48,168 nucleotides of DNA from Donghicola tyrosinivorans (GTDB taxonomy: Bacteria > Pseudomonadota > Alphaproteobacteria > Rhodobacterales > Rhodobacteraceae), in NCBI RefSeq assembly GCF_003003355.1, contig NZ_PVTQ01000022.1, forward strand, positions 1 to 48,168, read 5' to 3'. The notes below the pieces were generated by a model. It made no database searches. It saw only the letters and a program-made list of their open reading frames with translations, and had not been told where the DNA came from. The translations under genes were made by a program, and so were the position numbers. This document shows positions 22,536 to 47,770 of this stretch, one piece after another. Within the stretch, counting starts at the first letter, position 1; each line of letters starts with the position of its first letter.

Positions 22536-24766
<2,231 letters not shown>

Positions 24767-24767
<1 letters not shown>

Positions 24768-25425
24768 TGTACTTAACCAAAGCCTCTTTGTCGCGGGCGC
24801 CATCCGTCAAGGCGTTGGATAAACTCCTAATGCCGTCTGAGGCAGGAAACCGCACCGACGCCCATCACCGTCTGCTATGGACATTATTTGCGGATCGGGA
24901 AGACCGGGCGCGGGATTTCCTGTGGCGGGAAGAGGGCAAAGGGTCCTTTCTGATTTTGTCTGAACGTCCTCCGGCCCCGTCGGAACTGTTTGCCAGTGTG
25001 GACAGTAAGCCCTTTGACCCGGATCTGGGGCAGGGAGATAGGCTGCGTTTTGCACTTCGGGCGAATGCGACGCGCTCCAAGGATAAGAAACGCGTCGATG
25101 TTGTTATGGACGCTCTCTATGCCCTACCGGCAGCAGAGCGAGCGGAGCGGCGCATGGATGTCGCGACAAGTGAAGGTTACGCGTGGATGCAGCGGCAGGG
25201 TGCACAGCATGGGTTCAGCGTCCTTGCTTGTGTCGCCAGCGACTATTCCGTGCATGCCTTGCCGGCATATCGCGGTCCTCGTGACAAGCAGCCTCAGTTC
25301 GGCATCCTAGATCTTGAGGGAGAACTTCAGATCACAGATCCAGCCGCATTTGTCTCGGCAGTTGGCAAGGGGTTTGGCCGAGCCAAGGCCTTTGGCTGCG
25401 GCTTGATGCTGCTTCGACGGGCGTC

Positions 25426-25429
<4 letters not shown>
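24767..25429 (+). CDS. cas6e: Cas6e (CasE), crRNA-processing endoribonuclease
   Basis: A 220-residue protein (E. coli 199). DAHHRLLWTLFAD holds the catalytic His region, and the C-terminal Gly-rich loop GKGFGRAKAFGCGLMLLRRA binds the repeat hairpin. It cuts pre-crRNA at the base of that hairpin. ATG 24767, six bases after AGGAGG (24755-24760), is the better start. GTG 24764 lies too close to it. Confidence 0.94.
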
Positions 25430-26639
<1,210 letters not shown>

Positions 26640-26753
26640 GGTCAGCTCAGGCCCGCAGATTTTCTGGGTTTTTGCGTACTCCTAATTGCCGGATTGTTCG
26701 GTACGTTCTTTGACAATTGAAAAATTATTGTAGATCAGTCATCTACAGGAAGT
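26640..26753 (+). promoter_or_regulatory. CRISPR leader
   Basis: The 114 bases between cas2 and the first repeat are AT-rich towards the array. They contain a TTGACA (26710-26715) followed by AT-rich sequence, a plausible array promoter although a clean -10 is not obvious (TAGATC 26731-26736 is 15 bases away). A perfect inverted repeat TGTAGAT/ATCTACA (26729-26747) ends six bases before repeat 1. The leader directs array transcription and marks where new spacers are inserted. Confidence 0.75.
26652..26673 (+). terminator. Possible intrinsic terminator after cas2
   Basis: CAGA (26656-26659) pairs with TCTG (26663-26666), with further C/G pairs across a one-base bulge, followed by five T (26669-26673). 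The stem is short, so termination may be partial. It would separate cas operon and array transcription. Confidence 0.35.
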
Positions 26754-29700
26754 CTGTTCCCCGCATGCGCGGGGATGAACCGGATAGCGGGTTGACATTT
26801 GACGAAATGGTTGACTGTTCCCCGCATGCGCGGGGATGAACCGGCGCTTCTTCTGGTATTAACACATTCCCGCTCCTGTTCCCCGCATGCGCGGGGATGA
26901 ACCGTATTGGCAGGTCGTACGGCGTAACTGGGCAATCTGTTCCCCGCATGCGCGGGGATGAACCGCATGCTAAGCCCGAATGAAATAGCTGAATACACTG
27001 TTCCCCGCATGCGCGGGGATGAACCGCGGTGCAATCTGTTGACGTGCGATTGTCTCTGCTGTTCCCCGCATGCGCGGGGATGAACCGCGCGGGACGCCTA
27101 CCAAGCACATATTGACGCACTGTTCCCCGCATGCGCGGGGATGAACCGCCCTGATCGAGGAGCTCGCGGCGCAGGTTGCCCTGTTCCCCGCATGCGCGGG
27201 GATGAACCGGTGGCGCGGCTTGGCTACAATATCAGCGGATACTGTTCCCCGCATGCGCGGGGATGAACCGCCGGTCAAACTCAGGCCCTACGCCGCGCGT
27301 ACCTGTTCCCCGCATGCGCGGGGATGAACCGTTCTACGCATGGGTAGAACCGCGCATTGGTGCCTGTTCCCCGCATGCGCGGGGATGAACCGGCGGATGT
27401 GATCGGGCTCGGTGCCGAGCTCGACTGTTCCCCGCATGCGCGGGGATGAACCGGGTAGTAGTGCTCCGTCCGCCCGTTCGTTCGGCTGTTCCCCGCATGC
27501 GCGGGGATGAACCGAACGCAGGAAAATCAGCAACCGAAGTTGCTTGCTGTTCCCCGCATGCGCGGGGATGAACCGCCTGAGCAGGGAGGATGGACGTGTA
27601 ACCCGACCTGTTCCCCGCATGCGCGGGGATGAACCGCCCATTTCCCGCCATGATTTGATGATCGGGGCCTGTTCCCCGCATGCGCGGGGATGAACCGGTC
27701 CGCAATCATATTCAGGAAGTCGGACGCCACTGTTCCCCGCATGCGCGGGGATGAACCGCGCACGCTGGTTGGGACCCTGAGAACCATGGACTGTTCCCCG
27801 CATGCGCGGGGATGAACCGCGCGCGCTGGTTGGGGCCTTGAGAACCATGGACTGTTCCCCGCATGCGCGGGGATGAACCGTTGCATCCGGCGTTTGGTCG
27901 GGTATCCAGACCCTGTTCCCCGCATGCGCGGGGATGAACCGTTACAGAAAGCTGGTTTGAACGGTCGATATTCCTGTTCCCCGCATGCGCGGGGATGAAC
28001 CGAGCCTTTCCGGCAAGCTGGACCCCAAGCACGTCTGTTCCCCGCATGCGCGGGGATGAACCGCGGTACAGGGTAAGGGGACGCTCCGAGCCTTTCTGTT
28101 CCCCGCATGCGCGGGGATGAACCGATCGCCTAGCTGAACTTGACGACTGGGCGGCGCTGTTCCCCGCATGCGCGGGGATGAACCGAAACGCGATGCAGAC
28201 CCTGAGTTCCAAATTAACTGTTCCCCGCATGCGCGGGGATGAACCGATCGAGGAATACACCCCGCCCGTTACCACCGTCTGTTCCCCGCATGCGCGGGGA
28301 TGAACCGGTCGGCCTTTTGGTCTGGTGTCACCTTGAATACTGTTCCCCGCATGCGCGGGGATGAACCGGTGCCCGATGGACGAGAACAGCCTAATCACCC
28401 CTGTTCCCCGCATGCGCGGGGATGAACCGCGGACCGTATATCATTTTCTGAGGCTAATACACTGTTCCCCGCATGCGCGGGGATGAACCGTTCGACCACG
28501 ACCGAGCCATGTTTATGGAACACTGTTCCCCGCATGCGCGGGGATGAACCGAATAAAGACCAGTTCGAGAATGCCAAGGCGCACTGTTCCCCGCATGCGC
28601 GGGGATGAACCGACAGAGGCCCATGACATCATGACATCACTAACCTGTTCCCCGCATGCGCGGGGATGAACCGATGGACAGGGTAGGTCGGACGCTAAAA
28701 AACGTCTGTTCCCCGCATGCGCGGGGATGAACCGGACCGCCTGAACGCGGACTTCGCGGCTGCGCGCTGTTCCCCGCATGCGCGGGGATGAACCGGGCGT
28801 AGACGGTGACAGTCCATCTTTAAACTACTGTTCCCCGCATGCGCGGGGATGAACCGACAAGTTACGCCGCAACCATGCTGGCCCCTGACTGTTCCCCGCA
28901 TGCGCGGGGATGAACCGTAGCGTCACGCTGGCATTCCCGCGATCAGAACCTGTTCCCCGCATGCGCGGGGATGAACCGCCTAAAATGTACATGTACGTTG
29001 AGAGTGCCGTCTGTTCCCCGCATGCGCGGGGATGAACCGGATGCGTGGGCGTTCGTCAAGGCGCAGGCTGTCTGTTCCCCGCATGCGCGGGGATGAACCG
29101 GAACTGTCGATTAACGTTAGCGGCAACACGAGCTGTTCCCCGCATGCGCGGGGATGAACCGTGCAGATCCTGCTGCTCCGTATTGCTGAAAGTCTGTTCC
29201 CCGCATGCGCGGGGATGAACCGTTGATCGGTTAGAGAAGGCCCTAATTGACGTTCTGTTCCCCGCATGCGCGGGGATGAACCGCCGCAGTCGGATATCCA
29301 GCTTGAACTGGTTTCCTGTTCCCCGCATGCGCGGGGATGAACCGGCGCTAGCAGACCGGGCTACAGATACCGCCACCTGTTCCCCGCATGCGCGGGGATG
29401 AACCGAGGTCGATCAGGTTTACGACGTGACCCCTGCACTGTTCCCCGCATGCGCGGGGATGAACCGTTTTTTCGAGACGATAGAACGCTCGAAATTGACT
29501 GTTCCCCGCATGCGCGGGGATGAACCGCAGGTTCTGCACCGCCGTCTTGCCATACCCTGCTGTTCCCCGCATGCGCGGGGATGAACCGGAGAAACCAATG
29601 ACACACACATACAAATCAGACTGTTCCCCGCATGCGCGGGGATGAACCGGCCGAAGGTTTCCCCTCAGCCCGTCAGACGCACTGTTCCCCGCATGCGCGG

Positions 29701-29954
29701 GGATGAACCGCCACGGCGGCGGAGGACTTCGGCAAATGCGGCCTGTTCCCCGCATGCGCGGGGATGAACCGCAGTTGACCGAGTACATGGACCAGATGCA
29801 GCGCTGTTCCCCGCATGCGCGGGGATGAACCGGCCAGACGCGCCGCGCCATAGCTTCCGGTCACCTGTTCCCCGCATGCGCGGGGATGAACCGACCGCAG
29901 ACGGGTATCTAGTGGCCGAGGCTTACTGTTCCCCGCATGCGCGGGGATGAACCG
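26754..29954 (+). CRISPR. Type I-E CRISPR array, 53 repeats and 52 spacers
   Basis: The 29-bp repeat starts CTGTTCCCCG and ends GGGGATGAACCG. Its core CCCCGC-ATGC-GCGGGG gives a 6-bp stem with a 4-nt loop, the type I-E Cas6e hairpin. Repeat starts follow an exact 61-bp period from 26754 to 29926, so every spacer is 32 bp. All repeats look identical, including the last one, so there is no degenerate trailer repeat at this end. After 29954, 19 bases of a further spacer are cut by the IS30 element. Direction is plus, away from the cas operon. Spacers 17 and 18 (27759-27790 and 27820-27851) are near-identical. No spacer was seen to match elsewhere in the window. Confidence 0.99.
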
Positions 29955-29973
29955 TGTCGCTGCAACTGCGTGC

Positions 29974-31191
29974 GGTGGGTTCAACCGGTCAACGCAACAT
30001 CTTTGATATGAGATAGTGTGAAAGGACTGAGCATGGCGCAATCTGCACGTATTGGATTTTCGCAAGAACAGAAGGCGGAACTCTGGCAACGCTGGAAGAA
30101 TGGCGACACACTGAGCGAGATTGGTCGCGCCCTGGGTAAACACGCGGCCTCTGTCTTTGCTATCCTCGTTGCGCGTGGTGGCTTCGCGCCTGTGGCGCGC
30201 AGGCGTAAGGTGGGAGCGCTTACCTTTGCAGAGCGAGAGGAAATTTCGCGCTCCCTGAGTTCGGGGCGGTCTGTGCGGCAAATCGGTCGTGATCTTGGAC
30301 GAGCCCCCTCCACGATTAGCCGTGAGGTTTCGCGAAACGGGGGACGTTTAGTATATCGAGCATCTCGGGCCGACGATCAGGCGTGGGCGCGCGCCCGTAG
30401 ACCCAAGCCATGCGCATTGGCGCGCAACCCCGAACTCTGCGCCTTGGTTGCTGCCAAACTGTCTGAGCAATGGTCCCCGCAGCAGATTGCGGGATGGTTG
30501 AAAGCGGAAGGTCACGCTGCGACCATATCCCATGAGACAATCTACAAAAGCCTTTTCATTCAATCACGTGGCGTGCTGGATAAGGCAGTTCTATCACATT
30601 TGCGCAGCCGCAGGATCATGCGTAGAGGGCGTACCGCGACAACTGCAGGCCAAACGCGTGGCCAGATTATCGACGCGGTCTCGATCCACGATAGACCTGC
30701 CGAGATCGAGGATCGGACACAGCCCAGGCACTGGGAAGGGGATCTGTTAAACGGCTCGAAAAACAGTCATATCGCGACACTGGTCGAACGTAGTTCCCGT
30801 TTTGTGATGCTCGTCAAGTTGAGGGGAAAAGACAGCAACAGCGTCATCCGCGCCCTGAAGGCGCGCGTGCGTCGCCTGCCCAAAGGCATGATGGCATCTT
30901 TGACGTGGGATCGCGGCACCGAACTCGCGTATCATGCCAAATTCACGGCAGCGACTTCGGTTAACGTCTATTTCTGTGATCCTCAAAGCCCTTGGCAGCG
31001 TGGGAGTAACGAAAACACCAATGGGTTGCTGCGCCAGTATTTCCCGAAAGGGACTGATCTGTCTGCATATTCACAGCGAGACTTAGATGAAGTGGCGCAC
31101 CGCTTGAACACGAGGCCACGCAAAAGCCTTGGCTACCAAACTCCTGAGGATACCATGAAGCGAAACGTTGCGCTGACCGGTTGAACCCACC
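29974..31191 (+). mobile_element. IS30-family insertion sequence, about 1.2 kb
   Basis: The ends are GGTGGGTTCAACCGGTCAAC at 29974 and its complement, with one change in the first 25 bases, ending at 31191. The exact tip may be one or two bases inside. One transposase gene lies between them, with its stop codon inside the right repeat. No 2-3 bp target duplication is evident. The CRISPR spacer on the left does not continue on the right, so the right flank has been changed since insertion. Confidence 0.85.
30033..31184 (+). CDS. IS30-family transposase
   Basis: A 383-residue protein from ATG 30033, behind AAAGGA (30021-30026). An N-terminal helix-turn-helix (TLSEIGRALGKHAASVF) and a second (SVRQIGRDLGRAPSTISREV) are followed by QWSPQQIAGWL and the DDE core: Asp in HWEGDLL, Asp in LTWDRGTELA, and Glu in NENTNGLLRQYFPKGTDL, 33 residues after the second Asp. 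The motif and length are those of an intact IS30 transposase. Confidence 0.95.
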   Translation: MAQSARIGFSQEQKAELWQRWKNGDTLSEIGRALGKHAASVFAILVARGGFAPVARRRKVGALTFAEREEISRSLSSGRSVRQIGRDLGRAPSTISREVSRNGGRLVYRASRADDQAWARARRPKPCALARNPELCALVAAKLSEQWSPQQIAGWLKAEGHAATISHETIYKSLFIQSRGVLDKAVLSHLRSRRIMRRGRTATTAGQTRGQIIDAVSIHDRPAEIEDRTQPRHWEGDLLNGSKNSHIATLVERSSRFVMLVKLRGKDSNSVIRALKARVRRLPKGMMASLTWDRGTELAYHAKFTAATSVNVYFCDPQSPWQRGSNENTNGLLRQYFPKGTDLSAYSQRDLDEVAHRLNTRPRKSLGYQTPEDTMKRNVALTG

Positions 31192-31832
31192 CCGTCTTCC
31201 TTATGCGACCAAGGGGCAAGGGGCGTTGCCGGATTTCGCAGGAAGTGGGTCTTTCTTTTGGCTTATTGCGGTAGGGGTACTGTCAAATCGTTGCTTCAGC
31301 TATCAATTCATGCCGGTTCTGATTGCGGATTGGTTGCACGGTCCGCGTCCGGATATGGGCCCGACTGCTTGAGCATCATTGATACGGGAAAAGGAATTGG
31401 ATCCGTCGCGGGAATCTTTCTTCAATTAAGAATGGCTTAAATCATTTGCGTTTCAATTCTTGATTGCATGGGAGATCTGGCGGACTTCGGGCGCGAGAAG
31501 ATTTTTTCAGTTCGCACTAACCCGAGCGCGCCATCCGTTCTGCCTTAAGGTGGCGCGGCATATCGCATCTGAAATTACACAACTTTCCCAAGAAATCTAG
31601 TAAGTTACGCGAATCCATGGCGTATTTCGGAGAGCTGCCCATGAATTTTAAGCCAATCTATCCATTTGGATTTGGCGCATATTTGCAACCTTCAATTTTG
31701 GTTAATATTTTTCAAATCGTCACCATTTAATTTCCGTACATGTTCTATTGCGAATACGTCTTGAGAGGGGGCTAATTGTTGCAATCCATTGGCAATTGCC
31801 ACGCAAAAATCAATTATAGGACTTAGCCAGCT
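31192..31832. other. Intergenic region between the IS30 element and the giant repeat gene
   Basis: No gene can be supported in 641 bases. Its second half (from about 31440) is markedly AT-rich compared with the GC-rich gene that follows, typical of a promoter region. AGGA at 31816-31819 is 13 bases from the ATG, a poor ribosome binding site. No operator or riboswitch was recognised. Confidence 0.5.
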
Positions 31833-34800
31833 ATGACGCTCGCCACGCATACCGACTTTTCCCGAAATCTTGATACGATAGCTGATACAACGAATGTACC
31901 GGCGGGCGTGTCGCGGACCGGCACCGGTCTGGACGGGCTTTTGTCGCTGGTGGCGCAGGATCAGGCGCTGAACCTTTTTGTCACCCCTTTCGATATCCAG
32001 ACTGCCCTATCCGCAATGGCCGAACTTAATGCCATCATTGTGCAAGCGATCCATGAGACGGGGATTGCGGCGGACGGAGAGATATCGACCCCTGATCTGT
32101 TCCAGCTGTCTACCCATATCACCGCCAACTATGCGGACGCGTGGGCGCTGGCCCACGGGGATGATGAGGCAGGCGAGGAGACCGGCTTTCATCTGGTGCA
32201 GAATGACGGGGCCAACACCCAGCTTTTCGGAAGCAATGCGATCAATACGGTGATTGATGGCCTCTATCATCTGGGGTTTGGCTACACTGGAAACCATCTG
32301 ATCAATGAAGACGGTAACCGAAATGTGCAGGTGGATGATGCGGCGTTCTGGCTGAACGCCCTTCTGGCGCGGGATATCGCGGCGGGGGTTTTTGCAGGGG
32401 ACACCGCGCCCGCGCCGATTGCCACTACTGGCACGGGGCTGGACGCGCTGGTTGCTATGGTCCTGACCGATGAGGGCTTGAACCAGCGCCTGCCGCTGGA
32501 AGAGCTGCGCGCCGGTGCCGAAGCGGCCAACACCATGAACACCATCATCATAGAGGGCATCAAGGCGCTGGGTCTGGCCAATGATGGCACCTTTGATCCG
32601 GCGAATGTGACGGCTTTGGCCGACTGGATCCGCGCGAACCACTTTGACGCCTTTGTCGCGGCCCACGGGGATGATGAGGGCAGCGAAGAGACCGGTTTCC
32701 ATCTGGTGCAAAACGACGGGGCCAACACGCGGCTTTTCGGTGAGAATGGCGTTAATACCGTGGCCGATGGCATCTACCATCTGGTCTTTGGCTATACCGG
32801 CACCAATCTGATCAACGAGGACGGCAACCGCAACGCCAACACCGAGGATGTGGCCGACTGGCTAAACCGTCTGCTGGCCGATGATATGGCCGCTTTGGCC
32901 AACGGGGATGTGGCCGAGTATGTCGAGGGCACCACATCCACCGGTCTTGATCGCCTGATCTCGCTGATCGCTCATGACGAAGGACTGCGCACCCGCGCCT
33001 CGGACGCGGATATCCGTGACGGGGCCGAGGCCGCCAACACCATGAACGCCATCATCATCGAAGGGATCGAGGCTTTGGGCCTAGGCGATGACGGTACCTT
33101 GTCGCGTGGGGACGTGATGTCTTTGTCGGACTGGATCGCCGCAAACCGTTATGAAGCCTTTGTCGCCGCCCACGGGGATGACGAAGGGGCGGAAGAGACC
33201 GGTTTTCATCTGGTGCAGAACGACGGGTCCACTGGCCGCATCTTCAACCAGAACGCGGTGAATACGGTGGCCGATGGCATCTATCACCTTGTCTTCGGCT
33301 ACAGCCGCGGCCGCCTTGTGAATGAGGACGGCAACCTGAATGTCTCGATCGGGCAGGTGTCCTACTGGCTGAACGCCCTGCTGGCCGAGGATCTTAGCGA
33401 TTGGCGTGCGGCGGCGGGCAATGGCGAAACCGTGCTGGGAACCGGCCTTGATCGACTGGTGGCAATCATCGGTGCGGACCCGATCTTGGCTCAACGCATC
33501 CCCCTGACCGAAGTGCTTGACGGCATGGCCACCGCCCAAGGCATGAACGACATCATCATCGAGGCGATCAAGGCCACAGGCGTGGCGGCGAACGGCGAAA
33601 TCTCGGTCGCGGATGTGCGCGAGATTTCCGACTGGATCAACGCTAACCGCTATGAGGACTGGCTGCGCCTGCATGGAGACGATGAGGCGGGCGAAGAGAC
33701 CGGCTTCCATCTGGTCCAGAACGATGGGGCAAATACCCGTCTTTATGGGGATAATGCCGTGAATACGGTGGCCGATGGCATCTATCATCTGGGCTTCGGT
33801 TATGATCGCAATCGTCTGATCAATGAGGATGGCAACGCCAACGTCACATTGACCGATGTGTCTTACTGGTTGAACGATCTGCTGGCCGATGATCTGGCCG
33901 ATGGCTCGCTGGTTGGGGCGGTAGACCCCTATGACGTGGCGACCACCGGCACCGGTCTGGATGTGATCACGCAGGCGCTGTTCTCGGACGATGTTCTGAC
34001 CCGCAAGTTCACCACCTCGGAACTGGCGCAAGCGGCGACGGCGGCGGATGGGTTGAACGATATTCTGTTGCAGGCCATCCACCAGACCGGCGCTGCCAAT
34101 GACGGCGTTTTTGATGAAAACGACGTGCGCCTGATCAGCGCCTGGATTGCAGACAACGCGCTGGATCAGTGGGATGCGCTGTGGGGTGCCGACAGCACAG
34201 ACAGCGACGGTTTCGGCAAGGTGCAATATGAAGGGGCGACCTCTTCGTTCGACGGGGACAACCTGATCGACCGCATGGCGCGGACCCTTTACGGGCTTGG
34301 GCATGACATCCGCTACGATGTGGCGCTGTACGATCAAACCAACCGCTATGTGGGACGGGTCGAGGACGCGGCCACCTATCTGAACCAGTTGCTGGCCGAT
34401 GATCTGGACAGCGGCGCGCTGGTGAACAGCGATATCGTGGCCGCCGCCGAAGGCAGCTTTGACGATGCGCTGATCGCCGAAATGACCACACCGCTGGTGC
34501 TGGGGGATGGGCAGCAGGCGGTGCAGATCGCCCATGACGCCGCCCAAGAGGTGGACCAAGGCGCGATTGCCATCACCTTTACCTCCGACACGACCGAGGG
34601 CTGGGACCGGCGTACGCTGCTGTCCAAGGACTACCGCTCTTACGGGGATGGCGGTCATCTGACCATCACTGTCCGCGGGGGCCGGATCGAGGCGACGATG
34701 CAGTCCGGTGACACTACCTATACGCTTTCCTCACCCAAGGATGTTCTGGTGACGGGGGCGGCGACCGATCTGGTGCTGAACTTCGGCACGGACGGGGCGC

Positions 34801-37800
34801 AGATGTATGTGGATGGTGCTTTGGTGGCGGAAAACGCTGACGCCGCAATCACTTGGGCGCTGAACGACAGCCCTATCGCAATTGGTGAAAGCCGCCAGTG
34901 GGCCCGCAATGACAGTCTGACCAATTACGGTCTCTTTGACGGTGAGATCAGCGTCGTGCGGATCTATAACCGCAACCTGACCGCCCAAGAGGTTCTTACG
35001 CTGGACACCCAGCCGGAACAGGCCACGCCGCAGGCCGTTGCCCTGCCTTCGGGCAGTGTGCAGACCGTGGGTGCGGAGCTTTCGGCGGCGATCTTTGATG
35101 TCGCAGGCAGCTTTGTAACCATTGATCAACTGATCAACGGTGTGGCTGACGGTAGCTTGACCGCGACCCACGCGGCCTCTGTTGATACCCTTGCCTTCCA
35201 AGGCCACGGCACCCAAAGCCTGTCGGATTTCCTTGGCGATGCGGGGGCTGTGACCGACGGCGACGGCTCGGTCGCGATGACCACCATGGGCATGCATTTC
35301 ACCGGCTATATCTGGCTGGATGCGGGGGCGCATAGCTTTACCGTCCGCTCGGACGACGGGTTTGCCCTGTTCGTGGGCGAGGCAGAGATGATGCGCTATT
35401 CCACCCCGCGCCCGCAGGCGGCGACCTCTGCCAGCGCGGATTTCGCGGCGGGTCTCTATCAGATTGACGTTTACTACTATGAGAACGGCGGCTCGCAGGC
35501 ACTGGAATTGACACTGGATGGCGCGGCGCTGAAGCCTTCGCAGCTTTATACCAGCATTCAGTCCTATCAGGAGGCCGTGGCCTATGATCCGGCCATGGAT
35601 ACGATTGCTCTGACCGGCACCGGACTGGATCAGATCGTAGACTGGATCGCCAGCGATGGCGGGTTGGAGTTGCGCACCCTTGCCACCGATCAGGCCGAGG
35701 CGATCGAGGCCGCAAAAGGCATGAACCAGATCATCGTTGAGGCGATCAAAGCCATCGGCGCCGCCGATGACGGCACCCTCAGCGTGGCCGAGGTCTATGA
35801 CTTGGCCGACTGGATCAACCAGAACCGCTATGACGATTGGGTGCTGTATCACGGGGATGATGAAAACGGCGAAGAGACCGGTTTCCATCTGGCCCAGAAC
35901 GACGGTGCAACCACCATCATCTATGGCGAGAATGCCATCAACACGGTGGCTGACGGCCTCTATCACCTAGGCTTTGGCTATAACGGCAACCGCCGCCTGA
36001 TCAATGAAGACGGCGCCCAGAACGTGCGTGTCGAAGAGGTGGCCGATTGGCTGAACCACATCCTTGCCGATGATCTGGCCGCAGGCTCTTTGACCTCGGG
36101 GAATGACGTGGCGGTCACGGCCACGACTGGCACGGGGCTGGATCACTTGACGCAGGTTCTGGCGACCGATCAGGATCTGAACCTTTTCAACTCGGAATCC
36201 CGCCTTGTTCAGGCGGCGCAGGCCATGAACGTGATGAACAGCCTGATCCTTGAGGGTATCCACACCCTTGGCTATGCCAACGACGGTGTCATCTCTGCCG
36301 CAGAGATCGCGGGGCTGTCCGATTGGGTGCAGGCGGATGCCGCGCGTCTTGCGACATTCATCGAGGCCCATGGCGATGAGGAAGGCGGCGTGCGGACCGG
36401 TTTCCACATTGTGCAAGGCACGGTGGCCGATGCTGTCATGTTCGATGCCAACACCATCAACACCGTGGCTGACGGGCTGTATCATATGCCCTTCGGCTAC
36501 ACCGGCGGTCGCCTGCTGAATGAGGACGGCAACCAGAACGCCGCGCTTAGCACTGTGGCCGATAACCTGACCCAACTGCTGGCCAATGATCTGGCCGATC
36601 TGGTCAACCCTGATGCAGAGGTGGTGCAGGGCACTACGGGCACCGGTCTTGATCTGCTGGTGGATCGAATTTGGGCCGATAGCGGATTGCAGGCCCGTAT
36701 CTCGATGGCAGAGATTGCCACGGGCGCTGAGGCTGCCGACCAGATGAACCACATCATCGTGCAGTCGATCCAGACCCTTGGCTATGCCAATGACGGCACC
36801 CTTGCCGAAAGCGAGGTGCGCGGACTGGCCGAATACATCGCCGCAAACTACGCCGTTGGCGCGGACAGCCCGTGGCTGGTTTATCACGGGGATGATGAAA
36901 ACGATGAAGAGACCGGCTTCCATCTGGTTCAGAACGACGGCGCGACCTCTCGGATTTTCAACGAAAATCTTGTGAACACCGTGGCTGATGGCATCTACCA
37001 TCTGGGCTTTGGCTATCGCGGCAACCGTCTGATCAACGAGGACGGCAACAACAACCAGACCATCACGGATATCGCCGATTGGCTGAACACCTTGCTGGCC
37101 GATGACATGGCCTCGCTGGTGAACAGTGATGTGCAAACCTTTACGGGCACCACCGGAACAGGGCTGGATCAGTGGGTGACGCTGATCATGGAAGACATTG
37201 GCCTGAACCAGAACGTCTCGATCACCGATATTACCCAAGGGGCCTATTACGCCGATCAGATCAACACCATGATCGTGGACGGGGTGATCGCCACGGGTAT
37301 CGCCCGCAATGGCAGCTTTAGTGCCGCCGATATTCGCACCCTGTCGGACTATATCGCGGCGAATTACTATGGCGGTGACGCGACCTCGGCCTTTGCGATT
37401 GCCCATGGCGATGATGAAAACAACGAAGAAACCGGTTTCCATCTGGTCCAGAATGACGGTGCCAGCGCCCGCATGTACGGGGAAAATCTGGTCAACGCCG
37501 TTCTGGACGGGGTCTATCATCTGGGCTTTGGCTACAACAGCCGTGGCCGTCTGATCAATGAGGATGGGGCCCAGAACCAGACGCTAGTGGATGTGGCCTA
37601 CTGGCTAGAGGCTGCCCTTGCGGTGGAATTGACCAGCGGCGCATTGGTGACTGAGGCATCAAGCAATCCCTATGTAACAGGGACCACCGGCACCGGTCTT
37701 GATGCGTTGGTGGATCTGATCGTCGATGATCAGCGCCTGCATGACACGCTGACCGTCACCCAGATCGCCGAGGCCGCCAGCGCCGCCGATGCCCTGAACA

Positions 37801-39266
37801 CCCTGCTGCTTGAGGCGATCACGGCCACCGATGTGGCCCGCGATGGCGCTTTCACAGCGTCGGACCTCAAGGACATCTCGGTCTGGCTTGGTCAGAACTA
37901 CGCCGAGGAATGGGCGGCCCTGAACGGTGACAGCAGCAGTGGCTTCTCGTTGGCGATGGATGCCCGAACAGCGCTTTATGGCGAACGGGCCGTGAGCGGT
38001 GTGATGGATGCCTTCTACAATCTGGGCTTTGGCTACAAATACGATTACGTCATGACCGAGACCGGTGGCTATGACGTCAAGTTGCATGAGGCGGCCCTGT
38101 GGCTGTCTGATCTGCTTGAGGCAGAACTGGCAGACGGTTCTTTGGTTGGCGTGTTGCCCTCGGTCGAGGAAACGCCGGTCATGACCCGCACCGGTCTGAC
38201 CGTTGACGGGAACAGCACGGCAGAACTGCGCTATGTGGATGCGACGGCTGAAGGGTCGATCCTGACCACTTTCACGCTTGACACCATGAACACCAACACG
38301 CGCTATACCCTGTTTGAACGGGCGGCCAATGGGGATGCCGAAGGGTATTTCCGCGTCTATGTGGTCAATGGTGATCTGCGGCTGGACCTGCGGCAAGGGT
38401 CTGCGTCCTATTACGCCAAGGGCGATGCGCCGGAACTGGAGGCAGGGACCGAGTACTCTGTCGCGATGACCTTTGATGATGACACCGTCAGCGTCTATCT
38501 GAACGGCACCAAAGTGCTGGCCTTCTTGAACCCCGGTGTCGACTTTGCCGCGATGGATGCGGAACTGATGCTTGGGGGCTCGTTCAGCATGGGCTCGGCC
38601 GGTCAGGTCTATCCGTGGCATGTGTTTGACGGGCAGATCGCCTCGGTCGCGGTCTATGACACTGCGCTGGAAAACGGGCAGATCGCGGCACTGGACAACT
38701 CTGGCGGGCTGGATCTGCGGGTGCAGGCGGGCGCTGTGGCGCTGGCGGCAGAGACCGCAGGCGTGGGCGATGGTCTGAATGGTGCGCTGTTTGATGTGGA
38801 CGGCACTATAGGCTCGATCGGGTCCTATCGGGCGCAAACCGATGGCGTTGCGGCGGACATGACCTTCACCACGGATGTGCTGCAGTTCAAATCGGCCAGC
38901 TCTGGCACGCAAGAGGCCTTTGTTGCCAGCGGCGCCGCCAGCTACATCGGCGATGGCAGCGCGAAAGCCGATACCTTTGGTCTGAGCCTTGACGGGTTCA
39001 TCTTTGCCGAGGCGGGCAGTCACACCTTTGACATCGAGAGCGACGACGGTTTCTCGTTAAGCATTGGCGGTGTGGTCGTGTCCGAATTCGCAGGTCTGCG
39101 CGGAACGGCGACCACCCGTGCCGAGGTAATGTTCGCCGAGACCGGCTATTACGCCATCGACATCGATTACTTCGAGAATGGCGGCGCGCAGGTGCTGAAG
39201 GTCGAGATGGACAACGGGGTTCTGGACGACACTTTCCTGTTCACTGAACTGCCTGATCTGGTCTAA
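31833..39266 (+). CDS. Giant acidic repeat protein with LamG- and PA14-like domains (2,477 aa)
   Basis: The protein consists of two copies of one super-module. Residues about 29-865 hold five repeats of ~170 residues, each starting near GTGLDxLV and containing HGDDE, EETGFHLVQNDGA, NTVADGIYHLGFGY, LINEDGN and YWLNxLLADDLA. A concanavalin/LamG-like domain (about 906-1058) and a PA14-like domain (about 1077-1243, FTGYIWLDAGAHSFTVRSDDGF) follow. Residues 1261-2477 repeat the same order. In both halves the fifth repeat is degenerate and lacks the HGDDE/FHLVQND segment. Helix-DGxxS-helix stretches resemble half EF-hands. There is no N-terminal signal peptide, no hydrophobic span and no RTX nonapeptides. 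A cell-surface or secreted adhesive role is likely by domain type only. Confidence 0.85.
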   Translation: MTLATHTDFSRNLDTIADTTNVPAGVSRTGTGLDGLLSLVAQDQALNLFVTPFDIQTALSAMAELNAIIVQAIHETGIAADGEISTPDLFQLSTHITANYADAWALAHGDDEAGEETGFHLVQNDGANTQLFGSNAINTVIDGLYHLGFGYTGNHLINEDGNRNVQVDDAAFWLNALLARDIAAGVFAGDTAPAPIATTGTGLDALVAMVLTDEGLNQRLPLEELRAGAEAANTMNTIIIEGIKALGLANDGTFDPANVTALADWIRANHFDAFVAAHGDDEGSEETGFHLVQNDGANTRLFGENGVNTVADGIYHLVFGYTGTNLINEDGNRNANTEDVADWLNRLLADDMAALANGDVAEYVEGTTSTGLDRLISLIAHDEGLRTRASDADIRDGAEAANTMNAIIIEGIEALGLGDDGTLSRGDVMSLSDWIAANRYEAFVAAHGDDEGAEETGFHLVQNDGSTGRIFNQNAVNTVADGIYHLVFGYSRGRLVNEDGNLNVSIGQVSYWLNALLAEDLSDWRAAAGNGETVLGTGLDRLVAIIGADPILAQRIPLTEVLDGMATAQGMNDIIIEAIKATGVAANGEISVADVREISDWINANRYEDWLRLHGDDEAGEETGFHLVQNDGANTRLYGDNAVNTVADGIYHLGFGYDRNRLINEDGNANVTLTDVSYWLNDLLADDLADGSLVGAVDPYDVATTGTGLDVITQALFSDDVLTRKFTTSELAQAATAADGLNDILLQAIHQTGAANDGVFDENDVRLISAWIADNALDQWDALWGADSTDSDGFGKVQYEGATSSFDGDNLIDRMARTLYGLGHDIRYDVALYDQTNRYVGRVEDAATYLNQLLADDLDSGALVNSDIVAAAEGSFDDALIAEMTTPLVLGDGQQAVQIAHDAAQEVDQGAIAITFTSDTTEGWDRRTLLSKDYRSYGDGGHLTITVRGGRIEATMQSGDTTYTLSSPKDVLVTGAATDLVLNFGTDGAQMYVDGALVAENADAAITWALNDSPIAIGESRQWARNDSLTNYGLFDGEISVVRIYNRNLTAQEVLTLDTQPEQATPQAVALPSGSVQTVGAELSAAIFDVAGSFVTIDQLINGVADGSLTATHAASVDTLAFQGHGTQSLSDFLGDAGAVTDGDGSVAMTTMGMHFTGYIWLDAGAHSFTVRSDDGFALFVGEAEMMRYSTPRPQAATSASADFAAGLYQIDVYYYENGGSQALELTLDGAALKPSQLYTSIQSYQEAVAYDPAMDTIALTGTGLDQIVDWIASDGGLELRTLATDQAEAIEAAKGMNQIIVEAIKAIGAADDGTLSVAEVYDLADWINQNRYDDWVLYHGDDENGEETGFHLAQNDGATTIIYGENAINTVADGLYHLGFGYNGNRRLINEDGAQNVRVEEVADWLNHILADDLAAGSLTSGNDVAVTATTGTGLDHLTQVLATDQDLNLFNSESRLVQAAQAMNVMNSLILEGIHTLGYANDGVISAAEIAGLSDWVQADAARLATFIEAHGDEEGGVRTGFHIVQGTVADAVMFDANTINTVADGLYHMPFGYTGGRLLNEDGNQNAALSTVADNLTQLLANDLADLVNPDAEVVQGTTGTGLDLLVDRIWADSGLQARISMAEIATGAEAADQMNHIIVQSIQTLGYANDGTLAESEVRGLAEYIAANYAVGADSPWLVYHGDDENDEETGFHLVQNDGATSRIFNENLVNTVADGIYHLGFGYRGNRLINEDGNNNQTITDIADWLNTLLADDMASLVNSDVQTFTGTTGTGLDQWVTLIMEDIGLNQNVSITDITQGAYYADQINTMIVDGVIATGIARNGSFSAADIRTLSDYIAANYYGGDATSAFAIAHGDDENNEETGFHLVQNDGASARMYGENLVNAVLDGVYHLGFGYNSRGRLINEDGAQNQTLVDVAYWLEAALAVELTSGALVTEASSNPYVTGTTGTGLDALVDLIVDDQRLHDTLTVTQIAEAASAADALNTLLLEAITATDVARDGAFTASDLKDISVWLGQNYAEEWAALNGDSSSGFSLAMDARTALYGERAVSGVMDAFYNLGFGYKYDYVMTETGGYDVKLHEAALWLSDLLEAELADGSLVGVLPSVEETPVMTRTGLTVDGNSTAELRYVDATAEGSILTTFTLDTMNTNTRYTLFERAANGDAEGYFRVYVVNGDLRLDLRQGSASYYAKGDAPELEAGTEYSVAMTFDDDTVSVYLNGTKVLAFLNPGVDFAAMDAELMLGGSFSMGSAGQVYPWHVFDGQIASVAVYDTALENGQIAALDNSGGLDLRVQAGAVALAAETAGVGDGLNGALFDVDGTIGSIGSYRAQTDGVAADMTFTTDVLQFKSASSGTQEAFVASGAASYIGDGSAKADTFGLSLDGFIFAEAGSHTFDIESDDGFSLSIGGVVVSEFAGLRGTATTRAEVMFAETGYYAIDIDYFENGGAQVLKVEMDNGVLDDTFLFTELPDLV

Positions 39267-39356
39267 GGCTCTTGGCTCTTTCTGTTCTGTTTGCGGAAGG
39301 GGCCGTCTACGTGGCAGGCGTTGTGTTTTAGGTATTTTTGCCAAGATGAAATCAGG

Positions 39357-39393
39357 GCCGCTCGGCGAGGGATTGCCGGGCGGTTTTGTTTTT
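39357..39393 (+). terminator. Intrinsic terminator of the giant repeat gene
   Basis: CCGCTCGGC (39358-39366) and GCCGGGCGG (39375-39383) form a 9-bp stem with one mismatch, followed by TTTTGTTTTT. It lies about 90 bases after the stop codon, a strong rho-independent terminator. Confidence 0.8.
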
Positions 39394-39594
39394 CTGGATG
39401 TTCTTATTTTGTTCTGATAGGGTGGGGCGTTTATTCTAGCGGAGGTCTTTGGTCAGATGAAATTCAGATATGGTGGGTTCATGTGAACCAGCATGCAATT
39501 TTGACCCTGTAGCGGGGTGATCGGCATCCAAATATGACCCCCCTTACGCTGATGTTCATCATGCCCCCGAGGTTATCGGGGAGCACAGTGTGGG

Positions 39595-41163
39595 ATGTTG
39601 GTTGTGGAGACGATTGCGAAGATCCGGCGGGCATATTTTCAGGATAAGAAGAAGATCAAAGAGATCTGTCGCGAGTTCCGGGTCTCGCGGAACACTGTGC
39701 GTAAGGTGATTAGGTCCGGGGCCACCGAACTTACCTACGAGCGCACTGTCCAGCCGTTGCCGAAGATCGGGCCTTGGACCGATGAACTAGACGAGATGCT
39801 CGCGGCGAACGCCCGAAAGGGGAAGCGAGAGCGGTTGACCCTGATCAGGATTTTCGAAGAGTTGCGTGTCCGCGGCTATAGCGGTGGGTATGACGCCGTC
39901 CGGCGATATGCGGCATCATGGAGCAAGGAAGAACGATCTGCTTCAGTCGCGGCGTACGTCCCGTTGACCTTCGATCCAGGTGAGGCCTACCAGTTCGATT
40001 GGAGCCATGAGATCGTTCTCATTGACGGGGTCACGACGACCGTGAAGGTAGCTCACGTTCGCCTCTGTCACAGCCGGATGCTGTTCGTCCGCGCCTACCC
40101 TCGCGAGACACAAGAGATGGTCTTCGACGCGCACGACAAGGCTTTCGCCTTTTTTGGCGGCACCTGCACGCGGGGTATCTACGACAATATGAAGACGGCG
40201 GTGGACACGATCTTCGTCGGACGTGACCGAGCCTACAATCGGCGCTTCCAGCAGATGTGCGGGCACTATCTTGTAGATCCGGTCGCCTGTACGCCCGCTT
40301 CGGGCTGGGAGAAGGGGCAGGTCGAGAACCAGGTCGGCGTCGTGCGGCGGAGGTTCTTTGTGCCGCGGCCCAGATTCAAAAGTTACGCCGAACTCAATGC
40401 GTGGCTCGAGGACCGCTGCGTGGCGTGGGCCAAGGCCAATCCCCATCCAGAACGCAAGGATCGAACGACTTGGGACGTGTTCCAAGCGGAGCGCGAGAGC
40501 CTTGTTCCGTATGTCGGATCTTTTGACGGCTTCCATGCGGTGCCTGCTTCTGTGTCTAAGACGTGCCTCGTGCGGTTCGACAACAACCGGTATTCGGTAG
40601 ATGCCCGCGCCGTCGGGCGCCCGGTCGAGATCCGTGCCTATGCCGCGCGCATCGAGTTTTGGCAGGACGGTAAGGTCGTGGGGCAGCACGATCGCGCTTT
40701 CGGGCGCAACAGGGAGATCTATGACCCGCTGCACTATATCCCTGTTCTGGCTCGTAAACCTGGCGCCCTGCGTAATGGTGCCCCCTTCAAGGACTGGGAG
40801 TTGCCGGTTGCCATCAAACGCGTGCAGCGCAAGTTGGGGAAGGTGCCGAACGGCGACCGCCAGATGGTTCAGATCCTGAGCATGATCCCGACAGACGGAC
40901 TGGATGCCGTGGAAGCTGCGTGTGCCGAGGCATTGAAAGAAGGCGCACCTGCAGCGGCCGTCGTTCTGAACATTCTAGCCCGACACCGCGAACCTCCACC
41001 GCCACTCACGATTGCCACACCCGATGCCTTGCGACTGACCTGCGAGCCAGTGGCCGATTGCAAACGCTATGACACCCTGAGGAGACCCGATCATGGAAAG
41101 ATCACAGGTGCTGGACGCGATGGGCCAGCTAAAGCTCTACGGAATGAAGGCCGCATACGATGA
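39595..41163 (+). CDS. istA: IstA transposase of the IS21 element
   Basis: A 522-residue DDE transposase. An N-terminal helix-turn-helix ([23 protein letters not shown]) is followed by the catalytic core: Asp in YQFDWSHE, Asp in GIYDNMKTA and Glu in [14 protein letters not shown]-terminal beta-barrel region contains [24 protein letters not shown]. It acts with IstB. It starts at ATG 39595, and its 3' end overlaps istB by 71 bases, as usual in IS21. Confidence 0.94.
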
Positions 41164-41821
41164 GATCATCGCCACAGCTGTGAAGCGGCAGCACGAACCA
41201 CAGCAGATTGTTGGTGACCTTTTGAACGCCGAGATAAGCGAGAAGCAGGCGCGTTCAATCAAGTATCAACTGACCATCGCCCGCCTTCCGCTGGCCAAGG
41301 AGGTCGACGAGTTTACCTTCGAGGACACGCCGGTGAACGAGACGCTGGTCCGCGATCTGGCACTCGGCGACTTCCTCGACCAGCAGCGCAATGTCGTGCT
41401 GATCGGCGGTACCGGAACTGGCAAGTCGCATCTCGCGGTAAGTATCGCACGATCCTGCATCAGACGGGGTAAGCGGGGTCGGTTCTTCAACGTGGTTGAC
41501 CTCGTGAACAAGCTTGATGCCGAAGCCCGCGCTGACCGCCAAGGCCGTACCGCCGATCTGTTATGCCGCCTCGACTTCCTGATCCTCGACGAACTAGCCT
41601 ATCTGCCGTTCGCGCAAACTGGCGGCCAGCTTCTGTTCCATCTCATCAGCCGTCTTTACGAACGGACTTCGATCATCGTCACAACCAACCTCGACTTTGG
41701 TGAGTGGCCCTCCGTCTTCGGCGATGCAAAGATGACCACAGCACTTCTGGACCGTCTCACGCACCACTGTGACATCGTAGAAACCGGAAACGAGAGCTGG
41801 CGCTTCAAGACCCGCGAATAG
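41093..41821 (+). CDS. istB: IstB helper ATPase of the IS21 element
   Basis: A 242-residue AAA+ protein with Walker [12 protein letters not shown] and Walker [14 protein letters not shown], followed by [22 protein letters not shown], the IstB family signature. It assembles on target DNA and stimulates IstA. GAGGAG lies ahead of ATG 41093 inside istA. Confidence 0.95.
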
Positions 41822-41958
41822 TCAAAACGCAGCTGGCCCGACGCGGCTACGCTATATGGAGGCTACACCGCATCGGGCCAGCTGCCGTCGAGCATCAGGG
41901 GGTCACTTTTGAATGCCGATTGGGGGGTTAAAATTCGATGCCGATTGACACAGGTGGT

Positions 41959-42109
41959 CTGTTCCCCGCATGCGCGGGGATGAACCGGGCGGATATGGTG
42001 CGTTCCGGGCGCGGCGCGCCTGTTCCTCGCATGCGCGGGGACAACCGCTGACCGTGCGGAGCGCGGACCCGCTTTTCTGTCTGCGCCCTGCATGCACCGA
42101 GGTGAACTG
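41959..42109 (+). CRISPR. CRISPR array remnant (3 repeats, increasingly degenerate)
   Basis: Repeat 1 (41959-41987) is identical to the main array consensus. A 32-bp spacer follows, then repeat 2 (42020-42047), 28 bases long with one base lost and two changed. A 33-bp spacer precedes repeat 3 (42081-42109), which keeps CTG, CCC, GCATGC and TGAAC but has about seven changes. Repeat starts stay on the 61-bp period (41959, 42020, 42081), and the orientation equals that of the main array. Progressive decay is typical of the trailer (oldest) end. Only six bases of the preceding spacer remain before the IS21 tip. Confidence 0.9.
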
Positions 42110-42172
42110 ACAAACAAGGACGCTTTGAAAGGACCGCGCCCCGGCTCACGATTGTAGTCCATCAGGCAAAAG

Positions 42173-42261
42173 CGGTACAAGGTGGTACAGACGCGTACCG
42201 CTTCTTGTACCGCGTAACCTATTGTCAGGAATGGAAAAAATGCAAGCGGTACAGCGGTACA
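42173..42261. repeat. Cluster of six GGTACA motifs
   Basis: CGGTACA at 42173, 42247 and 42255, TGGTACA at 42183, and inverted TACCG copies at 42194-42200 and 42206-42212, all within 89 bases. The first four are spaced 10-12 bases apart, about one helical turn. This looks like a multi-site protein-binding region. No factor is recognised. It lies downstream of the DUF927 gene and just past the CRISPR remnant. Confidence 0.55.
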
Positions 42262-42394
42262 GGTTTTCCCGGAAATATGTGTGTAAGTGCGTGTGCGCAC
42301 GAATATTTTCTCCTAGAAATAAAGATATTTTGGACATTATCTATTAAATTATTGATTTATATAGATATTATCTATCTTTATCCTTGGAAACAAA

Positions 42395-42452
42395 TCGGAC
42401 ATAAGTTGGACAGACCTTGGACGAGATCGGACATTCTGCGATATTTGTCCAA
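42395..42452. repeat. Phased TNGGACA repeats beside an AT-rich stretch
   Basis: Direct copies TCGGACAT (42395), TTGGACAG (42406), TTGGACGA (42417) and TCGGACAT (42427) start 11, 11 and 10 bases apart. An inverted copy TTGTCCAA lies at 42445, and an isolated TTGGACAT at 42330. The intervening 42300-42385 is very AT-rich (TATTAAATTATTGATTTATA). Repeats next to an AT-rich segment suggest an origin or operator for the mobilization module. No gene is visible from 42110 to 42547. Confidence 0.5.
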
Positions 42453-42547
42453 GGACCGGCTTGCCACGGGACGGCAACATGCGGTTGGTGCCGCTTTTAA
42501 ATGTGATGAGCGGTTTCATGTCGGTTGGTAACGCATCTCTGCGCAGC

Positions 42548-44245
42548 CTATCGATCTATGGCACTCCGAGACATGCGATAGACCCAATTACGGGGACCGA
42601 AACTCAGCCGGTTTTGGAGGCTGCCGCTTTTCGCCCGGATCAAGATGTTTTGGCTATCCAGGAATTTTGCCCACTCGACGGCGCTGCCGTTACTCACTTC
42701 ATTTAAAGCGTCTTTCGTGAAGTCATATACTTTATCTGTGTACCAGACCTTCACCACTTCGGGTTTGAGGTGGTCCTTGCCAGCTTTGTGTGAACATTTC
42801 TGTTCAGGGGAAAGTCGGCTGAGATATTTCGAGATCTCGTCAAGGTGGATGCGCAGTGTTGCGGAGATCGACCGATCCTGGGCGTCGTACCATTGTCGCG
42901 CGACATGCTTCACGGCTTCGAGGGCGTCTCCTGACTGCCACCCGGTGATCCCCATGGAAGAGGCGTGCTCGCCCGCAAGAACGATAAGGGCAAATTGGCG
43001 GATGATCCGGGGGATCTCTCCCTGGAGGGCCTCACTGATATTCAGGGCTTGGTTCAACTTCAGGAAATAGCCGTCAAGTTCGGCCTCGAATCCTGCCCGA
43101 AGAAAAGGGTCATTCATAAGGCGTTCTACAAATGCTGGCCCAACCTTGCCGAACTCTTCGTTTGACTGCTGCGATAGAGCATCCACAAAACTGCGTCCAT
43201 GGTCCGCCCCATGCAAGACGTGGAACACCCCGTGGGGGGCGCTGACGGGAATATCGAGCCAGCGCACTTCCTGACCGCCACTGTTCTTCTCACCGCTGGC
43301 TTTGAGCATTTGCGCGCCGCTGAGTTCGCCTGCGGAAAGCAAGATGACTTGCCAGTTGTTGGTTGTCTTTGTCGTCCCGTCCTTATCCGCGCGGCCCTTT
43401 CCTTTTTCATTCCCGAACATGTAAATGTCGTCCGCAAAGGCCCGTTTGGCTTGCTCTTTCGGCAACTCGTCAACGCACAGAACAGTGTTGTTGGCTTTGA
43501 CCAGCCATCCCTCCAGTGCATTCCCCGTGGCACGCCACGTTTTAAGATTGGGGTTTTCAGGGCGGGGCCAGAGGCCTTCGGCGACGCGCAGAAGCGTTGA
43601 TTTGCCGGTACTGGTGTGGTGGTAAAAATGGACAGCGAAGCTTTTCACAGTCGGGGCAAACGGCAAGAGGGGCCCCGTCAGGGCGGCCGAGCAGGCGAAC
43701 ATGAGATAGGGATTTCCCCGCGCTTTCTGTCCTATTTTCCTGCGCCAGCCTTCCAAGGTTCCTTTTGTTTTGTTGGTCGTTTGAGGTTCTATGACGACCT
43801 CTGAGGTAAATCCCGGCGCTTTCAGAACCTGCCCATTGGTGAGGGCAAAATAGTCTTCATTGTTCCAACCCAGGGTCGTGGCAATCTTGTGATGCTCTTT
43901 TACCGGCCAGAGGGAGATTAACTCGGCAACAACTTTTTTCTCTCCGAAGACTATCCACCCCCTATTGCCCATCACTCCGAGCGCTTTCGGGGGAGCGCTG
44001 ATCAACAGATCGTTGCGGACCAGAACCTCGACGATGTGACCATCAGTCGTCAGAACCTCGATGAGGAACGACATGTTCGCACGATTACGATCGTAGGCGC
44101 GCGCCTTCACGCGAAACGGGGTGCAAAGCTTGACTCCAAATGCAAGAATACATTGCTCTTTTAGCTCGTATTTGGTCCGATTTTTCGAGTTTATTTCTTT
44201 TAACTCGCTTTCGATTTCTTTGAGAAATGAATCGATATGGGCCAT
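42548..44245 (-). CDS. DUF927-domain ATPase
   Basis: A 565-residue protein. The DUF927 region spans about residues 110-420. It includes LISLWPVKEHHKIATTLGW, the Walker A HHTSTGKSTLLRVAEGLW (near residue 240), a Walker B-like VLCVDELPKEQAKRAFADDIYMFGNEKGKGRADKDG, and VILLSAGELSG. DUF927 proteins are helicase-like P-loop ATPases on plasmids, integrative elements and phages, often next to primase functions. Here it follows the relaxase-primase gene on the same strand, so a role in replication or transfer of the module is likely. Its codon use is less GC-rich than that of the relaxase. No ribosome binding site is evident. Confidence 0.8.
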   Translation of the reverse strand: MAHIDSFLKEIESELKEINSKNRTKYELKEQCILAFGVKLCTPFRVKARAYDRNRANMSFLIEVLTTDGHIVEVLVRNDLLISAPPKALGVMGNRGWIVFGEKKVVAELISLWPVKEHHKIATTLGWNNEDYFALTNGQVLKAPGFTSEVVIEPQTTNKTKGTLEGWRRKIGQKARGNPYLMFACSAALTGPLLPFAPTVKSFAVHFYHHTSTGKSTLLRVAEGLWPRPENPNLKTWRATGNALEGWLVKANNTVLCVDELPKEQAKRAFADDIYMFGNEKGKGRADKDGTTKTTNNWQVILLSAGELSGAQMLKASGEKNSGGQEVRWLDIPVSAPHGVFHVLHGADHGRSFVDALSQQSNEEFGKVGPAFVERLMNDPFLRAGFEAELDGYFLKLNQALNISEALQGEIPRIIRQFALIVLAGEHASSMGITGWQSGDALEAVKHVARQWYDAQDRSISATLRIHLDEISKYLSRLSPEQKCSHKAGKDHLKPEVVKVWYTDKVYDFTKDALNEVSNGSAVEWAKFLDSQNILIRAKSGSLQNRLSFGPRNWVYRMSRSAIDR

Positions 44246-44432
44246 GATTGTCGCATCATAAGTGGAGTTGATTGAAAAATATTGAAACGATCAATGCACA
44301 TTTCGCTGCCAGGGTGCTCTCCGGAATATTGGCATGAGCTCATAGGATACAGCGCTGGAATTTTGCGGACTGGTAATTTGCAATTTAAGTCAGGTCCAGA
44401 CAGAACTTCTGAATTTTTGGCGGAGGTTTCGG

Positions 44433-44654
44433 TCACGCTGATGGCCAGAGAACCGCGTTGCCCCAACGCGGATTGAGTTCGGAGTGCACGCGGTCCTGAA
44501 CATCGCGGTTCTTGGAAGTGTCGCGACACGCCAGTGGCTTTTGCCGTTGAGGAGCGCCGAGAGGATCTCTGCTGTATGTTCCAATGCACGCAGGACGGCG
44601 GCATGCCATTCCTCCTGTGCGACAAGCTCCGATCCCCACCAGCCCCCCTTTCAC
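44433..44654 (-). pseudogene. Small gene downstream of the relaxase with two compensating frame disturbances
   Basis: A GTG at 44654 overlaps the relaxase stop and opens a 77-codon-class frame ending at 44433. Read straight through, the middle is an unlikely Cys/Arg-rich sequence. The other frame in that middle reads SELVAQEEWHAAVLRALEHT and then LLNGKSHWRVATLP, which looks like real protein. The 3' part reads KNRDVQDRVHSELNPRWG in the first frame. One extra G in the GGGGGG run near 44646 and one missing C near 44505 would explain both shifts. Family not recognised. Either a damaged gene or sequence errors. The remaining bases to 44246 hold nothing recognisable. Confidence 0.45.
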
Positions 44655-47305: not shown

Positions 47306-47670
47306 GACAGCGCTTTTCCCAGCCGCTTGATCAGCGCCCCATGGAGCGCTTGGGTGGTTTCAAAAACCTCCATGTCCGGTTGCGAGAGCTGCGCAACACG
47401 CCCTGTGTTGATGGCACGGGCGATCTGGTTGAGGTTGGACCCTTGCTTTGACAACTCGGCAAAGAGCTTGAGTTGATCCCGCCGTTCGCGGCGCCTGATG
47501 GCGACGTTGCCCAAGACGAAGGCCTCCAGATAGTCCTTCGGTGTTTCATAACCTGCCGCCGCAGCACGTTGCGCAAAGGCCGCGTGCTGTGCCTCGGTGA
47601 CACGTTTCTGAACGATTTTGGCGGCGCGCCGCCGTTCTGATCTGGGCTTTTTATCCCCTGCTTTTGCCAT
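47302..47670 (-). CDS. mobC: MobC-like relaxosome accessory protein
   Basis: A 122-residue basic protein from ATG 47670 (MAKAGDKKPRSERRRAAK), behind AAGGAAG. ATG 47688 and a longer frame exist but lack a binding site. The MobC pattern is visible: RVTEAQHAAFAQRAAAAGYETPKDYLEAFVLG, then LFAELSKQGSNLNQIARAINTG. It helps open oriT for the relaxase. It is coupled to the relaxase gene by a four-base overlap. Confidence 0.88.
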   Translation of the reverse strand: MAKAGDKKPRSERRRAAKIVQKRVTEAQHAAFAQRAAAAGYETPKDYLEAFVLGNVAIRRRERRDQLKLFAELSKQGSNLNQIARAINTGRVAQLSQPDMEVFETTQALHGALIKRLGKALS

Positions 47671-47770
47671 CTTCTCTGCTTCCTTCATGTCCGGAGGATC
47701 CGCCTTTCTCGGGCCGCTCCCTTCTGTCTTCTTCTCCCCTATGGCCCATCTCCGCCGCCCGCCGAGGCCA

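Follow-up and report, generated by a model that had tools for sequence, protein, structure and literature searches.

The 48,168-base stretch of DNA analysed here (the window) is a complete contig (C22) of the draft Donghicola tyrosinivorans genome, which comprises 61 contigs and 4.68 Mb. It carries repABC-type plasmid partition and replication genes (ParA-like, RepB and RP-C). Adjoining repABC and an integrase are TniA-, TniB- and TniQ-like genes (6796–10432), which we take to form a Tn5053/Tn7-like element, and a Macro-domain and DarT-like gene pair, presumably resembling a DarTG toxin–antitoxin, lies upstream of cas3 (15637–17519). The type I-E cas operon follows at 18468–26639 (forward strand, as are all features below to which a strand is assigned) and encodes cas3, cse1 (cas8e), cse2 (cas11), cas7, cas5, cas6, cas1 and cas2. 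Membership in type I-E is borne out both by this full gene set, with Pfam matches for 8 of 8 ORFs, and by the architecture of the array, with 29-nt hairpin repeats, 32-nt spacers and a 61-bp period. Cse1 is single in the genome. The leader region, whose extent we take to be the DNA between cas2 and the first repeat (26640–26753), ends in CATCTACAGGAAGT; it likewise occurs in a single copy in the genome, and its terminal motif also precedes the CRISPR array of Donghicola mangrovi.

A repeat scan places the main CRISPR array at 26754–29954. It contains 53 repeats of 29 nt, all with zero mismatches, and 52 complete spacers; every spacer is 32 nt long (52/52) and every start-to-start step is 61 bp (52/52). 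Two neighbouring spacers (27759–27790 and 27820–27851) are identical at 29 of 32 positions, as if acquired from one site in two related invaders. The last repeat (29926–29954) is perfect and is followed by just 19 nt (29955–29973), read as a truncated spacer, before the 25-bp inverted repeat of an IS30 element begins at 29974. The preliminary description, which had the array stopping in mid-spacer at an IS30 tip behind a perfect last repeat, was right on this point. Formally, neither the cas genes nor the 52 spacers on the leader side are damaged and, because both leader and cas genes have been kept, the main array is probably usable.

The IS30-family element (29974–31191) has 25-bp terminal inverted repeats and a transposase ORF (30018–31184) with Pfam HTH_38 and rve domains. 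Its left tip lies within 1 nt of the tip in a 93% identical partial copy on a Thioclava plasmid; among 120 relatives searched, 11 hold partial, weaker matches, and no further copy was found in the assembly of this genome. From the IS30 element to a second IS30 tip extends a passenger segment (31192–39471) with homology to contig C8 at both ends. At its distal end, positions 39287–39472 align at ∼77% identity with a C8 intergenic region of the AraC/glyoxalase family. The homology stops exactly where the first codons of a glyoxalase-family gene (39457–39472 by alignment; the C8 homologue has a Pfam Glyoxalase domain) are cut by the second tip. At the proximal end, 31191–31231 weakly matches another site on C8. 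The second tip itself consists of 10 nt (39472–39481) equal to the IS30 tip GGTGGGTTCA and compatible with either orientation. Apart from 39472–39481, the window contains this string at the two IS30 tips and nowhere else, and its probability at one fixed place is ∼1e-6. These 10 nt would be where another copy of IS30 began; with one full copy and one 10-nt tip around the passenger, the arrangement may derive from a composite transposon.

Most of the passenger is a giant gene (31833–39266) encoding 2477 aa, with ∼170-aa repeats and LamG-like and PA14 domains in Pfam; its product is likely a secreted or surface protein. Full-length homologues exist on contig C18 of the same genome (5245–12756) and in D. 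mangrovi. In a family sample of 394 genomes, 78 gave some match, mostly short, and full length was reached only by these two. The window gene is 69% identical in nucleotides to the C18 homologue and 71% to that of D. mangrovi, whereas those two are 79% identical to each other. The gene therefore looks like an outsider, and on these identities we rejected a native origin, a weak argument in that old paralogy is possible.

Immediately beyond the 10 nt is an IS21-family, ISPkr1-like element (39482–41950) with istA at 39595–41163 and istB at 41093–41821, identified from Pfam matches, a partial copy on contig C6 and the tips found by megablast. Among the first 10 matches listed, five begin and end exactly at 39482 and 41950 and the other five within 1 to 15 nt of these positions. 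The flanks of five of those 10 relatives, three of which represent separate insertions in the plasmids of a single strain, were examined for target duplications; a perfect 6–7-bp duplication is present in four and absent from one (for one relative the tip was placed one base over in this comparison). The window copy lacks a target duplication, with GGGTTCA on one flank and CAGGTGG on the other, a lack that is not peculiar to it in view of the one relative, and on its left it directly adjoins the 10-nt IS30 tip sequence. No second full copy was found in the assembly; 40 of 45 candidates were scored, and they yielded only a 76-bp piece on C6. Within the right end of the element, between istB and the repeats described next, an inverted repeat forms a hairpin (41829–41885), and the segment 41824–41890 has a folding energy of −40 kcal/mol (z −6.3).

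Array repeats on the same strand as the main array reappear beyond the IS21 element, so that repeats of one orientation stand on both sides of the insertion sequences. An 8-nt stub, CAGGTGGT (41951–41958), which we read preferably as the end of a spacer and less likely as the end of a leader, separates the tip from a perfect first repeat (41959–41987). A 32-nt spacer with no convincing protospacer follows (41988–42019), and then a degenerate second repeat (42020–42047) with a C-to-T change at position 8; it has six mismatches when compared without gaps as 42020–42048 and is 28 nt long once a short indel is allowed. The second spacer (42048–42080) leads to a strongly decayed terminal repeat (42081–42109) with eight mismatches. 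The three repeats follow each other in 61-bp steps with 0, 6 and 8 mismatches, just as the preliminary description had reported for their sequence, orientation, period and growing degeneracy; its coordinates are correct, and its placement of them directly after the IS21 element needs only the amendment that the first starts 8 nt past the tip. In a chance control covering both strands of the window outside the arrays, none of 89,402 other placements had nine or fewer mismatches and three had 10. On this control, and because it is in register and identical to the array repeat at 21 of 29 positions, we rejected the possibility that the third repeat is ordinary backbone.

Folding follows the decay. 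Remnant repeat 1 folds at −14.3 kcal/mol, like the main repeats, repeat 2 slightly more weakly at −12.1 kcal/mol, and repeat 3 no better than shuffled sequences. A scan of 41700–42250 for sigma-70-like promoters, the one class of site that it covered, gave 0 matches against 0.2 expected by chance, a result of little weight. About 12 kb now lie between the leader and the remnant spacers; no crRNA is expected from them, and the remnant is probably silent.

To the right of the terminal repeat is a mobilisable-plasmid backbone (42110–48168, no strand assigned) encoding a DUF927 protein, a MobA/VirD2-type relaxase and a NikA/MobC-like protein, recognised by Pfam and by homology to C18. Window positions 42083–42757 are 87% identical to C18 59712–60390, and 44638–48168 are 92% identical to C18 60375–63904. 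Both contigs end at homologous relaxase-region positions (48168 in the window, 63904 on C18), which suggests an identical common continuation that broke the assembly. Outside the window contig, the genome repeats with three or fewer mismatches comprise a single case, a relic on C18 (54582–54663). Its penultimate repeat has the C-to-T change at position 8 seen in the window, and its last spacer and decayed terminal repeat are also those of the window, except that 9 nt are absent across the boundary between these two; the relic runs on into backbone homologous to the relaxase-plasmid DNA of the window. Because repeat mutation, last spacer, terminal repeat and backbone are all shared, the trailer must have adjoined this backbone before the two copies diverged. 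C18 gave no match to the cas genes of the window, and the relic is preceded there by a pseudouridine-synthase gene and not by a leader.

C18 also holds direct repeats of the trailer/backbone segment (54583–54992, partial, and 59712–60390), which flank ∼4.7 kb that carry SMP-30 and DctM-type transporter genes. These cargo-flanking repeats, together with the mobile DNA that stands in the window in place of the rest of the array, allow the conjecture that the segment from the terminal repeats to about 42757 serves time and again as a site of recombination through which replicons exchange cargo. We give this idea very little credence; if it were true, CRISPR trailers would be junctions for inter-replicon exchange.

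A close relative of the locus is the type I-E locus of D. mangrovi (NZ_JABCJE010000002.1). Among 101 genomes, the repeat with two or fewer mismatches is present in just two, the source genome and D. mangrovi. There the repeat is identical, and cas genes, leader and array start are ∼80% identical to the window in one alignment (18458–28248). The D. mangrovi locus differs in its flanks and trailer, and its array, with 25 repeats of which 23 are perfect, is uninterrupted. Since an array with the identical repeat exists with other flanks, identity of the repeats on the two sides of the insertion sequences is by itself no proof that they once formed one array.

Nor is a perfect last repeat alone diagnostic of truncation. 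We compared flanks and terminal repeats in 20 genome-contig stretches with the exact repeat (some of them neighbours on one contig) and in two viral-contig stretches. Five of the 20 genome stretches hold arrays that run past the fetched DNA. The array end is visible in the other 15; eight end in a degenerate repeat, and in seven no degenerate repeat with 10 or fewer mismatches stands where the spacing would put it, although two of these seven look more decayed by eye. The seven ends are what deprives a perfect terminal repeat of diagnostic value. In Paracoccus shandongensis, the last perfect repeat of the array is succeeded by two repeat-like units so heavily decayed that, by eye, they resemble the remnant.

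The preliminary description had proposed looking in related plasmids for an uninterrupted array that ends in the remnant spacers; none was found among the genome contigs, the family sample and the plasmid collection searched. In the 394-genome family sample, trailer and backbone gave nothing longer than short matches in any other genome; this was a weak search, in which two candidates were scored per genome and even the relic on C18 (54583) was missed. Megablast with the array and with 42020–48168 gave no match in the plasmid collection, and there a distant search with 41951–44650 returned eight records, each matching ∼80–100 nt around the first repeats. Viral contigs gave no exact match to the 19-nt stub or to pieces of the two remnant spacers (24 nt of spacer 1, 26 nt of spacer 2). 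Searches of phage records (E limit 10) returned 12 records for the main array and 16 for the remnant; the best main-array match (E 1e-5), to an unannotated record, spans several array pieces and is taken to be repeat-driven. Remnant spacer 1 also has a 34-bp match in another genome (G109), which was rejected as a protospacer, as it lies within an ORF, presumably that of an antiporter subunit, and looks like a GC-rich chance match.

The two stubs constrain how the array was divided. With 19 nt on one side and 8 nt on the other, at least 5 nt of a 32-nt spacer are missing even if both come from one spacer, so the flanks do not rejoin into one intact spacer, and the IS21 element has no target duplication. 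Single insertion of IS21 into a spacer was rejected on these two grounds. The stub lengths, the missing IS21 duplication and the IS30 tip abutting IS21 indicate that array sequence was lost at the junction. They equally contradict the simple interruption by one block of IS30, giant gene and IS21 that the preliminary description had envisaged.

We hold, with moderate confidence, that one ancestral type I-E plasmid array lost its continuity in at least two steps, an IS30-bounded insertion followed by an IS21-associated deletion. An IS30-bounded, composite-transposon-like segment with the giant gene and the start of the glyoxalase gene would first have entered a spacer. IS21 would then have inserted into the second IS30 copy and into the array, and the two IS21 copies would have recombined, removing the DNA between them; alternatively, a single IS21 may have made an adjacent deletion. 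Either event would have cost the array at least 5 nt and possibly many units, along with most of IS30 copy 2. No intermediate of the IS21 step survives, and the assembly, in which no second full IS30 or IS21 copy was found, shows none of those proposed. The three repeats beyond IS21 are, judging from the sequence comparisons, most likely the old trailer end of the main array. That the remnant is the missing trailer of a split array, as first proposed, is thus upheld in so far as it is trailer-like, decays distally and has a homologue on C18; no relative found in the searches bridges the two sides as one array.

It is less likely, yet conceivable, that two different arrays were joined instead, with cas genes and main array coming from one replicon and trailer and relaxase backbone from another through IS-mediated or homologous recombination. 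Such an origin would account for the presence of trailer and backbone on a second contig that gives no match to the window cas genes. Moreover, the D. mangrovi cas locus, ∼80% identical and accompanied by an identical repeat in other flanks, indicates that the cassette moves between contexts, and no sequence bridges the gap in the window. However, an extra array is then needed in a genome with a single Cse1, a single leader and one outside repeat within three mismatches, and the strand and order of the repeats fit one array.

The suggestion in the preliminary description that the remnant belongs to a second array with a lost leader fares worse. The start of a small array beside the main one, its leader cut off by IS21, would fit the 8 nt before the first remnant repeat, which match the leader end at 6 of 8 positions. 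However, 2 of the 52 ordinary 8-mers that precede repeats in the main array match equally well, and the leader is single-copy. Decay would also have to grow away from the supposed leader across just three repeats, and the C18 homologue has the pseudouridine-synthase gene where a leader would be expected; we regard this origin as quite improbable. An assembly artefact is the least probable explanation of all: the genome is a draft, the window makes up an entire contig, and it breaks off on the right at a position homologous to the right end of C18, but a mis-join via repeated copies is unlikely because the assembly yielded no second full IS30 or IS21.

The two-step loss of one array has partial counterparts in known systems. 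A close precedent is the CRISPR (DR) locus of the Mycobacterium tuberculosis complex, where IS6110 insertions split the array and two reports connect the loss of repeat-spacer blocks with recombination of IS6110 copies (PMC7708916, PMC5310062). As in the window, an IS lies inside the array with spacers on either side, and IS-flanked units are lost (PMC7708916, PMC5310062). Unlike the window, with its type I-E system, two IS families and 8-kb passenger, that locus is type III-A and involves one IS family (PMC5310062); moreover, isolates with an intermediate have been reported there, whereas none was found for the locus described here. Transposition into Sulfolobales arrays is described as very rare in a review, which mentions one IS that entered a spacer under selection (PMC4390879). 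That insertion, of ISC1359 in a Sulfolobus array, resembles ours in lying in a spacer, which it inactivates, and differs in having arisen within a selection experiment (PMC4390879).

For IS30, transposition is described as yielding insertions, deletions, inversions and cointegrates (PMC9333248). The ISApl1-mcr-1-ISApl1 transposon (Tn6330) offers a parallel in which the passenger is enclosed by IS copies of the IS30 family and forms with a single such end are also reported (PMC5821093, PMC6349718); in the window, by comparison, just 10 nt of the second IS30 copy are left, and the transposition is a proposed one. Another report was rejected as a precedent, the IS in the case it describes lying within an LPS gene (PMC7344871). 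A limited literature survey on interrupted arrays and on Donghicola and CRISPR yielded no report recognised as this locus, and a similarly limited one on IS21 target duplications and adjacent deletions found nothing useful.

The locus is a well-preserved example of an already known kind of decay. Because IS-linked loss of array units has been described before, it leaves the general picture of CRISPR biology as it was. Judging by the relic on C18, array ends may survive as fossils where cas genes are no longer present. The window illustrates how the oldest memory of a plasmid type I-E array may be lost, through IS-associated truncation and separation of the trailer, in an order of events that we infer from the junctions.
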